Source of the DNA: Loxodes magnus
Taxonomy: Eukaryota > Ciliophora > Karyorelictea > Loxodida > Loxodidae
Direction of reading: 5' to 3'
Length of the DNA stretch: 64,000 bases
Assembly (NCBI GenBank): GCA_946699065.1
Contig: CAMPDV010001041.1
Coordinates: 1-64,000, forward strand
How positions within the stretch are numbered: the first letter of the stretch is position 1; the number at the start of each line of letters is the position of its first letter. Positions 1-64,000 of this stretch are shown here, one piece after another. The notes under the pieces are model-generated. The model did not search any database, was not told the DNA's origin, and saw only the letters and a list, made by a program, of their open reading frames with translations. A program made the position numbers and the translations under genes.

Positions 1-2
1 TC

Positions 3-3000
3 AAGACAGGTACCTGTAAGACCATGAGTGGTCACGCAGCTTCAGTATAATCTGTGGCTATATCCAGTGATTCAGAGTTCATTGTATCGGGAAGTGGAGA
101 TTATACGGTGAGACTATGGAACGTCAAGACAGGTACCTGTAAGACCATGAGTGGTCACACTGGTCATGTATGATCTGTGGCTATATCCAGTGATTCAGAG
201 TTCATTGTATCGGGAAGTCGAGATAATACGGTGAGACTATGGGACGTCAAGACAGGTACCTGTAGGACCATGAGTGGTCACACTAGTTATGTATATGCTG
301 TGGCTATATCCAGTGATTCAGAGTTCATTGTATCAGGAAGTCGAGATAATACGGTGAGACTATGGGACGTCAAGACAGGTACCTGTAGGACCATGAGTGG
401 TCACACTAGTTATGTATATGCTGTGGCTATATCCAGTGATTCAGAGTTCATTGTATCAGGAAGTCGAGATAATACGGTGAGACTATGGGACGTCAAGACA
501 GGTACCTGTAAGACCATGAGTGGTCACACTAGTAATGTATATGCTGTGGCTATATCCAGTAATTCAGAGTTCATCGTATCGGGAAGTCATGATTAGACGG
601 TGAGACTATGGGACGTCAAGACAGGTACCTGTAAGACCATGAGTGGTCACACTAGTAATGTATATGCTGTGGCTATATCCAGTGATTCAGAGTTCATTGT
701 ATCAGGAAGTCGAGATAATACGGTGAGACTATGGGACGTCAAGACAGGTACCTGTAAGACCATGAGTGGTCACACTAGTAATGTATATGCTGTGGCTATA
801 TCCAGTAATTCAGAGTTCATTGTATCAGGAAGTCGAGATAATACGGTGAGACTATGGGACGTCAAGACAGGTACCTGTAAGACCATGAGTGGTCACACTA
901 GTTATGTATATGCTGTGGCTATATCCAGTAATTCAGAGTTCATTGTATCAGGAAGTCGAGATAAGACGGTGAGACTATGGGACGTCAAGACAGGTACCTG
1001 TAAGACCATGAGTGGTCACACTAGTCATGTATATGCTGTGGCTATATCCAGTAATTCAGAGTTCATCGTATCGGGAAGTTATGATTATACGGTGAGACTA
1101 TGGGACGTCAAGACAGGTACCTGTAAGACCATGAGTGGTCACACTAGTTATGTATATGCTGTGGCTATATCCAGTAATTCAGAGTTCATCGTATCGAGAA
1201 GTCGAGATAATACGGTGAGACTATGGGACGTCAAGACAGGTACCTGTAGGACCATGAGTGGTCACACTAGTTATGTATATGCTGTGGCTATATCCAGTAA
1301 TTCAGAGTTCATCGTATCGAGAAGTCGAGATAATACGGTGAGACTATGGGACGTCAAGACAGGTACCTGTAGGACCATGAGTGGTCACACTAGTTATGTA
1401 TATGCTGTGGCTATATCCAGTGATTCAGAGTTCATTGTATCAGGAAGTCGAGATAATACGGTGAGACTATGGGACGTCAAGACAGGTACCTGTAAGACCA
1501 TGAGTGGTCACACTAGTTATGTATATGCTGTGGCTATATCCAGTGATTCAGAGTTCATTGTATCAGGAAGTCGAGATAAGACGGTGAGACTATGGGACGT
1601 CAAGACAGGTACCTGTAAGACCATGAGTGGTCACACTAGTCATGTATATGCTGTGGCTATATCCAGTAATTCAGAGTTCATCGTATCGGGAAGTTATGAT
1701 TATACGGTGAGACTATGGGACGTCAAGACAGGTACCTGTAAGACCATGAGTGGTCACACTAGTTATGTATATGCTGTGGCTATATCCAGTGATTCAGAGT
1801 TCATTGTATCAGGAAGTCGAGATAATACGGTGAGACTATGGGACGTCAAGACAGGTACCTGTAAGACCATGAGTGGTCACGCAGCTTCAGTATGATCTGT
1901 GGCTATATCCAGTGATTCAGAGTTCATTGTATCAGGAAGTCGAGATAATACGGTGAGACTATGGGACGTCAAGACAGGTACCTGTAAGACCATGAGTGGT
2001 CACACTAGTTATGTATATGCTGTGGCTATATCCAGTAATTCAGAGTTCATTGTATCAGGAAGTCGAGATAAGACGGTGAGACTATGGGACGTCAAGACAG
2101 GTACCTGTAAGACCATGAGTGGTCACACTAGTCATGTATATGCTGTGGCTATATCCAGTGATTCAGAGTTCATTGTATCAGGAAGTCGAGATAATACGGT
2201 GAGACTATGGGACGTCAAGACAGGTACCTGTAAGACCATGAGTGGTCACACTAGTAATGTATATGCTGTGGCTATATCCAGTAATTCAGAGTTCATCGTA
2301 TCGGGAAGTCATGATTATACGGTGAGACTATGGAACGTCAAGACAGGTACCTGTAAGACCATGAGTGGTCACACAGCTTCAGTATTATCTGTGGCTATAT
2401 CCAGTGATTCAGAGTTCATCGTATCGGGAAGTGGAGATTAGACGGTGAGACTATGGAACATCAAGACAGGTACCTGTAGGACCATGAGTGGTAACACTAG
2501 TTATGTATATGCTGTGGCTATATCCAGTGATTCAGAGTTCATTGTATCAGGAAGTCGAGATAATACGGTGAGACTATGGGACGTCAAGACAGGTACCTGT
2601 AAGACCATGAGTGGTCACACTAGTTATGTATATGCTGTGGCTATATCCAGTGATTCAGAGTTCATTGTATCAGGAAGTCGAGATAATACGGTGAGACTAT
2701 GGGACGTCAAGACAGGTACCTGTAAGACCATGAGTGGTCACGCAGCTTCAGTATGATCTGTGGCTATATCCAGTGATTCAGAGTTCATTGTATCAGGAAG
2801 TCGAGATAATACGGTGAGACTATGGGACGTCAAGACAGGTACCTGTAAGACCATGAGTGGTCACACTAGTTATGTATATGCTGTGGCTATATCCAGTAAT
2901 TCAGAGTTCATTGTATCAGGAAGTCGAGATAAGACGGTGAGACTATGGGACGTCAAGACAGGTACCTGTAAGACCATGAGTGGTCACACTAGTCATGTAT

Positions 3001-62600: not shown

Positions 62601-64000
62601 ACGTCAAGACAGGTACCTGTAAGACCATGAGTGGTCACACTTATTATGTATGATCTGTGGCTATATCCATTGATTCAGAGTTCATCGTATCGGGAAGTTC
62701 AGATTAGACGGTGAGACTATGGGACGTCAAGACAGGTACCTGTAAGACCATGAGTGGTCACACTTATTCTGTATTCTCTGTGGCTATATCCAATGATTCA
62801 GAGTTCATCGTATCGGGAAGTGCAGATAAGACGGTGAGACTATGGGACGTCAAGACAGGTACCTGTAAGACCATGAGTGGTCACACTTATTCTGTATTCT
62901 CTGTGGCTATATCCAATGATTCAGAGTTCATCGTATCGGGAAGTGCAGATAAGACGGTGAGACTATGGGACGTCAAGACAGGTACCTGTAAGACCATGAG
63001 TGGTCACACCAGTGTTGTATATGCTGTGGCTATATCCAATGATTCAGAGTTCATCGTATCGGGAAGTGTAGATTAGACGGTGAGACTATGGGACGTCAAG
63101 ACAGGTACCTGTAAGACCATGAGTGGTCACACTAATTAGGCTTTCTCTGTGGCTATATCCAGTGATTCAGAGTTCATCGTATCGGGAAGTAATGATTATA
63201 CGGTGAGACTATGGGACGTCAAGACAGGTACCTGTAAGACCATGAGTGGTCACACAGATTCTGTATATGCTGTGGCTATATCCAGTGATTCAGAGTTCAT
63301 CGTATCGGGAAGTGCAGATAAGACGGTGAGACTATGGGACGTCAAGACAGGTACCTGTAAGACCATGAGTGGTCACACTAATTAGGTATTCTCTGTGGCT
63401 ATATCCAGTGATTCAGAGTTCATCGTATCGGGAAGTGCAGATAAGACGGTGAGACTATGGGACGTCAAGACAGGTACCTGTAAGACCATGAGTGGTCACA
63501 CTAATTAGGTATTCTCTGTGGCTATATCCAATGATTCAGAGTTCATCGTATCGGGAAGTGTAGATTAGACGGTGAGACTATGGGACGTCAAGACAGGTAC
63601 CTGTAAGACCATGAGTGGTCACACACATTATGTATATGCTGTGGCTATATCCAGTGATTCAGAGTTCATCGTATCGGGAAGTGTAAATTAGACGGTGAGA
63701 CTATGGGACGTCAAGACAGGTACCTGTAAGACCATGAGTGGTCACACACATTATGTATATGCTGTGGCTATATCCAATGATTCAGAGTTCATCGTATCGG
63801 GAAGTGCAGATTATACGGTGAGACTATGGGACGTCAAGACAGGTACCTGTAAGACCATGAGTGGTCACACTTGTGTTGTATATGCTGTGGCTATATCCAG
63901 TGATTCAGAGTTCATCATATCGGGAAGTCATGATAAGACGGTGAGACTATGGGACGTCAAGACAGGTACCTGCAAGACCATGAGTGGTCACACTAGTGTT
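53624..64000 (+). CDS. Giant WD40-repeat protein, segment 4 (3' end beyond window)
   Basis: About 84 WD40 units run in phase 3n+2 to the window edge, where the last unit is cut after codon 21. Characteristic changes are A-L-S-S at 26-29 (ATA to TTA), G-I-A-D at 37-40 (AGT to ATT at 38), T-C-V-V at 19-22, and V-N-TAG at 39-41. In-frame TAG, TGA and a TGA at codon 37 recur in blocks. No stop is followed by non-repeat sequence, so no C-terminus can be placed. With UAR=Gln and UGA=Trp the segment is continuous. Conserved Cys12 occurs in every unit read. The protein could contribute about 12 seven-bladed propellers here. Confidence 0.5.
55085..57052 (+). repeat. 8-unit (984-bp) tandem copies
   Basis: The order V-N-TAG, H-Y-V, A-D-Y, C-V-V, H-D-K, S-V-V, V-D-TAG starts at 55,085 and again at 56,069. 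Both include the silent TGC at Cys12 (55,362 and 56,346). The copies diverge near 56,720, where A-L-S-S units begin in the second. The same order also appears at 58,898 (23 units on) and 63,695. Confidence 0.75.
56330..64000 (+). repeat. 39-unit (4,797-bp) higher-order repeat, second locus
   Basis: Positions 56,684, 57,053, 57,545, 58,352 and 58,898 match 61,481, 61,850, 62,342, 63,149 and 63,695, all offset by exactly 4,797 bp. The match starts near the TGC codon at 56,346/61,143 and runs to the window edge. One visible difference is S-A-D-K near 57,900 against S-S-D-TAG near 62,697. Nested 8- and 23-unit copies (56,684; 59,513; 60,497; 61,481) lie inside. Confidence 0.85.

Follow-up and report, generated by a model that had tools for sequence, protein, structure and literature searches.

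WD40-derived tandem array of Loxodes magnus carries in-frame stop codons at hypervariable positions and is most plausibly a non-coding megasatellite

The window analysed here, the first 64,000 bp of contig CAMPDV010001041.1 (C1041) of the karyorelict ciliate Loxodes magnus, is occupied from end to end by one tandem array, in which Tandem Repeats Finder (TRF) reports 520 copies of a 123-bp unit. Each unit spans 41 codons and corresponds to a single WD40 blade (PF00400). Segmentation gave 519 full units comprising 21,279 codons; 163 of the units are distinct. Codons are numbered from GTC (c1) to TGG (c40) and GAC (c41), and the numbers of an initial annotation, made from the letters of the window alone, equal c + 6, modulo 41. 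The codon table shows hot-spot variation in otherwise near-identical repeats: most of it falls in eight codons in two blocks, c13 to c18 and c33 with c35, which were treated as hypervariable, and most other codons are near-invariant. The translation of the longest stretch without a standard stop served as search query and matched PF00400 fourteen times (E 1.1e-157). Protein searches returned WD40 relatives at 55% identity or less among the matches listed (120 of 7,789 and 120 of 4,771). No other frame or strand qualifies as the true one, with 1,171 to 1,603 stops in the three reverse frames, 1,520 in the remaining forward frame and open stretches of 40 codons at most in all of these; the other two forward frames hold the WD40 frame before and after a deletion. 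The contig begins within the array, the 5′ end of which lies off the contig, and the array reaches position 119,661; its size is thus at least 119.7 kb. There it breaks off abruptly, mid-unit, into DNA of 26% GC. The array has a GC content of 43–45% and its neighbourhood 24–26%, and among variants in the array 32 are GC to AT and 4 AT to GC. The GC-rich array in an AT-rich neighbourhood, together with this excess, suggests a GC-richer coding sequence that would have been amplified recently and would now be decaying.

Read in the WD40 frame, the window contains 312 in-frame stops (TAG 224, TGA 78, TAA 10) in 274 of the 519 units. They are not evenly spread. Codons c15 (114), c17 (71), c33 (3) and c35 (110) hold 298 of them, and the remainder lie at c31 (10), c37 (2, from the two units with a frameshift), c2 (1) and c26 (1). 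TAG predominates at c15 and c35 and TGA at c17. Counted over the distinct units alone, 107 stops remain, 99 of them at c15, c17, c33 and c35. The initial annotation had placed the stops almost only at its codons 21, 23, 39 and 41; the full count bears out the concentration, most clearly for 21, 23 and 41, while its codon 39 (c33) is weakly populated and its codon 37 (c31), with ten stops, had gone unmentioned. At c31 TGA replaces the conserved Gly codon GGA in the 10 window units and in 14 later ones. Trp at this position would probably hurt the WD40 fold, and the replacement is consistent with drift. CAA and CAG are indeed absent from the WD40 frame, as had been remarked (0 of 21,279 codons). 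The pattern continues over the following 55.7 kb of the array, where 384 units of 123 bp contain 199 stops (c15 46, c17 32, c35 106, c31 14, c26 1). The three common stop alleles are all confined to hypervariable codons and are spread over many types of unit (TAG at c15 in 27 distinct units, TAG at c35 in 45, TGA at c17 in 21). This is a point in favour of the initial annotation, which had proposed reading UAA and UAG (UAR) as Gln and UGA as Trp.

The window by itself is no proof of recoding. Outside the hypervariable codons we counted 12 synonymous and 32 missense variants and 2 stops; 10.5, 32.6 and 2.85 are expected neutrally from the array's own mutation types, with two frameshifted units excluded. 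Conserved codons seldom become stops, just as had been claimed, but this does not speak for recoding, since those codons vary little in any way. The premise of frequent Gln at positions 21 and 41 did not hold: in 766 distinct WD40 repeats from 240 homologues among the matches listed, the share of Gln is 1.4% at c15 and 2.7% at c35, and that of Trp 8.1% at c17. At the window TAG columns Asn scores +2.4 and Gln −1.2 (513 repeats), and Tyr, Lys and Glu outscore Gln as well. The neutral class ratios and the low frequency of Gln in relatives weaken the claim as drawn from the window, and stop placement within an amplified array is weak evidence alone. A dead WD40 array in an organism with the standard code, never recoded and collecting stops by drift, would fit these class ratios and the excess of GC to AT variants; at c35 AAG/AAT and TAG/TAT could also be one A to T change apart. 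It leaves the three common stop alleles at hypervariable codons unexplained, and it is already contradicted by UAR-containing genes elsewhere in the genome and by the published code. We consider it extremely unlikely. Mutation of the repeat-induced point mutation (RIP) type, from C to T, was tried separately and rejected, since G to T and G to A variants occur at equal frequency (0.4 per site each).

The genome searched comprises 705,730,643 bases in 7,843 contigs. UAR codons are clearly sense codons in its ordinary genes. A RING-like/coiled-coil/pentapeptide/WD40 gene downstream of the array has 56 UAR in 544 translated codons, its coil being Gln-rich, and a kinase domain on contig C1503 (PF07714, E 1.3e-58 under code table 27) has 8 UAR inside the domain. 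The standard code leaves these in-frame UAR, in genes with intact domains, unexplained. The assignment to Gln would rest mainly on two further observations. At two conserved Gln codons of a second WD40 family (126-bp unit, 648 units) CAG exchanges with TAG, with counts of CAG 638/TAG 10 and CAG 641/TAG 3/AAG 2/CAT 2, an exchange for which the standard code again has no explanation. A further gene encodes five ML (lipid-recognition) domains in tandem, and the codons in their ‘SQT’ column are CAR (CAA or CAG), TAA, CAR, CAR and TAG, two of the five domains being near copies of each other.

For UGA, Trp is the best amino acid over five WD40 columns (+7.4), followed by Tyr (+0.7). The second family carries TGA at its c17 (114), c11 (81) and c19 (21); c17 and c19 are the columns of window c15 and c17, where Trp makes up 15.4% and 7.6% of 513 repeats. 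On contig C4046 the motif HAN[TGA]V[TGA]S likewise has TGA at Trp-favoured WD40 columns, and a late repeat of the RING-like gene has TGA at the invariant Trp (TIRI[TGA]NV). The reading frame of the latter gene extends to ...YIK[TGA], where UGA seems to terminate it.

Several observations weigh against these assignments. In the kinase, scored with homologues among the matches listed (120 of 4,809), the seven TAA columns give Ala 4.9, Gln 4.3 and Glu 1.5, so that Gln is not separated from Ala; at the only TAG column Val is favoured and Gln scores −0.9, and the CAR control columns give Gln 12.0. At c11 of the second family, where TGA is common, the residue in relatives is Leu or Phe, Trp making up 0.2%. 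When the invariant Trp column is left out, Tyr leads for TGA (5.5), with Phe and Met also above Trp, which is fourth (2.3). Most of the evidence for TGA as Trp comes from arrays or from a gene with a frameshift: one 122-bp unit shifts the frame of the RING-like gene, and as the gene is one base short, TGA at its invariant Trp could be nonsense in a pseudogene. Exchange of TGG for TGA at conserved Trp was found in 0 of 900 codons on C1041 and 0 of 2 × 648 in the second family. A different reassignment, with UAR as Glu, Tyr or Asn for example, or with UGA as an amino acid other than Trp, could call on the order of scores at the window TAG columns, on Tyr exceeding Trp once the invariant column is removed and on the slight lead of Ala at kinase TAA. 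It has to contend with the CAG/TAG exchange, the ML column, the poly-Gln-like coiled coil, the score of Trp over all five columns and published table 27, and we give it almost no credence. As judged from coding sequence, the genome supports UAR as Gln and, less clearly, UGA as Trp. The proposed code is thus upheld by genes outside the array, through UAR read-through, CAG/TAG exchange and the ML column, and not by the argument drawn from the window; among conserved columns of other genes UAR stands as sense and as Gln, and UGA as Trp only with the invariant column included. The guess of a karyorelict-type code was right, as the genes of this genome fit published table 27. No tRNA genes were found in the window or in nine flanking loci scanned.

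Whether the array is translated is a separate matter. Its 969 spacings comprise 900 of 123 bp, 56 of 122 bp, 5 of 121 bp, 2 of 124 bp and 6 odd ones. Of the 63 off-length spacings (121, 122 or 124 bp), 56 lie beyond 87 kb, and off-length units are 245 bp apart 18 times, marking a propagated 123+122 dimer. The window has four 122-bp units with two deletions between them (Table 1). The deletion haplotype of unit 236 recurs at 51166–51287, and units 414 and 434 each precede a unit of haplotype AAT TAG GTA TTA TCT. Each deletion thus occurs in two units with common haplotypes or neighbours, and so looks inherited. The nonsynonymous to synonymous ratio, presence-based and with an interval from a bootstrap over codons, is 0.83 (0.53–1.40) in the window and 1.08 (0.62–2.57) beyond it, which is near neutrality. 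A single translated frame is not kept, the frame being lost repeatedly, and no head was seen on the contig's array, whose 5′ end lies beyond the contig. Length, loss of frame and an abrupt 3′ edge are features of a satellite; the array of the second family on contig C119 also starts mid-unit. Since no frame is kept, the array is probably not translated as one gene and non-coding.

The alternative would be that the array is all or part of a functional giant WD40 gene, or of several such genes, read under table 27 and broken by assembly errors of one base. All three stops are sense in table 27, the first 29 kb of the array stay in one frame, and one of the two deletion types, accounting for two of the window's four deletions, sits in a GGG run, a context more prone to sequencing error. 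An open kinase/WD40 gene shows that such repeats are coding elsewhere. The second family has ratios of 0.38 and 0.53, with wide intervals; it looks mildly constrained, so that some arrays may be coding. Seven units of the window were also modelled (AlphaFold pLDDT 92.3, pTM 0.89) as a seven-bladed propeller, with a best match in a Foldseek search of the PDB at E 4.8e-29 and TM 0.91; with so confident a model, the source repeats were probably an ordinary WD40 domain. Against a giant gene stand the off-length spacings with their concentration beyond 87 kb and propagated dimer, the occurrence of one deletion haplotype at two places, the HiFi reads from which the published assembly was made (PMC11441545), the near-neutral ratios and the abrupt, AT-rich 3′ edge. 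We find such a gene unlikely. The most plausible reading of the array is a non-coding megasatellite that arose from the repeats of a WD40 gene.

Taken together, we think it very probable that L. magnus, with the karyorelict code of table 27, has amplified WD40 gene repeats into an untranslated, drifting satellite. In its nuclear code UAA and UAG would both mean Gln, and UGA would stand for Trp or, close to the end of a transcript, for stop. Hypervariable blade positions could then take the Gln and Trp codons TAG, TGA and, rarely, TAA freely, as mere alleles; because all three stops would be read as amino acids, the apparent stops were probably ordinary codons while the pieces belonged to genes. 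Amplification of the C-terminal repeats of the RING-like/coiled-coil/pentapeptide/WD40 gene would have produced the satellite, which measures at least 119.7 kb and has the window as its first part. The satellite would retain the pattern of hypervariable codons and evolve by duplication and drift with no frame kept. From these observations we infer both the direction of amplification, from gene to satellite, and the lack of translation.

Table 1. Coordinates of the array, its units and related genes. Positions without a contig are those of the window.
Feature	Location	Strand	Basis or remark
123-bp WD40-derived tandem array, portion of	1..64000	+	TRF, unit segmentation, Pfam WD40; continues to C1041:119,661
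First full unit in phase used (c1 GTC ... c40 TGG, c41 GAC)	123..245	+	Codon table
Longest stretch without standard stop; 595 aa, 14 WD40 stretches; search query	18312..20099	+	Open reading frame and Pfam
122-bp unit 236; one-base deletion near c29 and TAG at c26	29151..29272	+	Shifts frame of all downstream
Seven units with TAG c15 (3), TGA c17 (1), TAG c35 (4)	44306..45166	+	Table 27 translation gives 7-bladed propeller model
Two successive 122-bp units (414, 415)	51044..51287	+	TGGGAC to TGGAC, then deletion haplotype of 29151
122-bp unit 434; TGGGAC to TGGAC deletion	53502..53623	+	
RING-like/coiled-coil/pentapeptide/WD40 gene	C1041:132,134-134,490		Array-like unit DNA; 12.5 kb downstream of array
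Kinase/WD40 gene, open under table 27; WD40 repeats run off contig	C1503:258-1580	-	PF07714
Five tandem ML domains, secreted-looking by eye	C119, L026:9403 to L025:1391		Four PF02221 stretches and one by eye
Second WD40 family loci	L015-L020, L028-L030		C119, C1503, C6957, C4046

The array is one of several. The second WD40 satellite family, with the 126-bp unit TIKVWDFQTGSCLRTFTGHADSVLSIAISPDQKWIVSASYDD, lies on contigs C119, C1503, C6957 and C4046, in the non-overlapping loci of which its 648 units were counted. Its array on C119 extends for about 42 kb to the contig end and begins after AT-rich DNA. A WD40 profile search of the genome gave 98,927 first-look candidates, of which 150 were scored; at about 125 bp each these would amount to some 12 Mb, a figure that is an indication only. 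Near the second family on C119, two of the five ML domains are near-identical copies of a 360-bp unit. A reverse transcriptase fragment (PF00078) was also observed at the C119 locus (L025:6677-7135, minus strand), and fits the long interspersed nuclear elements (LINE) reported for L. magnus (PMC11441545).

Within C1041 itself, a disordered stretch of the array at 79,208–80,122, with odd spacings of 288, 117, 76, 433 and 120 bp, separates a mostly frame-stable part from a part rich in 122-bp units. In the flank, near-identical 91-aa open stretches in opposite orientation (124,076–124,348, plus strand, and 130,486–130,758, minus strand) are possibly an interspersed repeat. The gene beyond them has a Cys-rich RING-like start, a Gln-rich coil, pentapeptide repeats (PF00805, PF13599) and WD40 repeats in that order; ‘RING-like’ was named by eye from Cys/His spacing, and no RING is among the matches listed (25 of 28 Pfam families). 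In the kinase/WD40 gene, removal of a 20-nt GT-AG stretch before the WD40 repeats links the kinase to them in frame. This stretch is likely an intron; a 26-nt reading also works. No NACHT head was found in the pieces scanned, and these two related genes have RING-like or kinase heads.

The arrays keep the hot-spot variation typical of recognition domains. If they exchange with the kinase/WD40 or RING-like/WD40 genes, satellite DNA would be linked to receptor diversification. We compared four units of the downstream gene with the array. One has a hypervariable haplotype found in the array (four copies), and the closest array units are at edit distances of 6, 2, 3 and 1. The second gene unit is one base short, which put its haplotype out of phase, and little can be concluded from its zero. 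These four units give no support for or against recent exchange between gene and array. That WD40 megasatellites serve as a silent archive of hundreds of hypervariable blades, relieved by the code of the need to avoid stops and feeding new recognition surfaces by gene conversion into the kinase/WD40 and RING-like/WD40 genes as an immune-like diversification system, is a long shot.

A bacterial, phage or plasmid origin was considered and rejected. One exact 27-base pattern for each of the sets gave 0 stretches in viral and 0 in genome contigs, blastn of 1,788 bases gave no match in plasmids or phages, and a protein scan of viral contigs gave none either; the sets searched for these negatives may leave out the window's own genome.

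Code table 28 is that of Condylostoma magnum. In this ciliate UAA and UAG are read as Q and UGA as W (PMC4967479), sense meanings identical to those found here, and in Amoebophrya ex Karlodinium all three stops are likewise reported as sense (PMC6394959). The published features of this genome match Loxodes: the L. magnus macronuclear assembly is described as 706 Mbp in size, 231 Mbp of it tandem repeats, built from HiFi reads and read with table 27, in which UAR is Gln and UGA is Trp or stop (PMC11441545). That karyorelict table (Parduczia sp., Loxodes magnus) fits the genes of this genome, including the apparent end of the RING-like gene at UGA, whereas the window array itself is probably untranslated. 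The code is known already for this lineage, so that its recovery here, from a single raw window, amounts to an independent rediscovery. WD40 blades as part of the genome's tandem-repeat load seem to be unreported. In the open-licence literature searched nothing was found linking Loxodes and WD40, among the matches listed nothing was relevant by title on WD40 satellites, including those of ciliates, and the available main text of the L. magnus paper (PMC11441545) has 0 occurrences of ‘wd40’ and ‘satellite’.

The variation itself resembles that of known WD40 proteins. Highly repetitive WD40 proteins are described as having diverse hot-spot sites in otherwise conserved repeats (PMC5587647), and for the WD40 domains of HNWD, a fungal NOD-like receptor (NLR) family, the variable positions given are 10, 11, 12, 14, 30, 32 and 39 (PMC12222747). 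By their spacing the first six of these would match c13, c14, c15, c17, c33 and c35, and the near-identical repeats of the window array vary at hot spots in the same manner. HNWD domains have about 11 repeats (PMC12222747), whereas the array has 969 spacings and keeps no frame. The heads differ too, an NLR head in HNWD and RING-like/pentapeptide and kinase heads here. Satellite DNA derived from coding repeats is a recognised kind of sequence. With such satellites the window array shares its long head-to-tail arrangement, higher-order dimers, abrupt edge and drift. Unlike them, its unit is a whole protein blade of 41 codons, and it keeps the hypervariable-codon pattern of its source.

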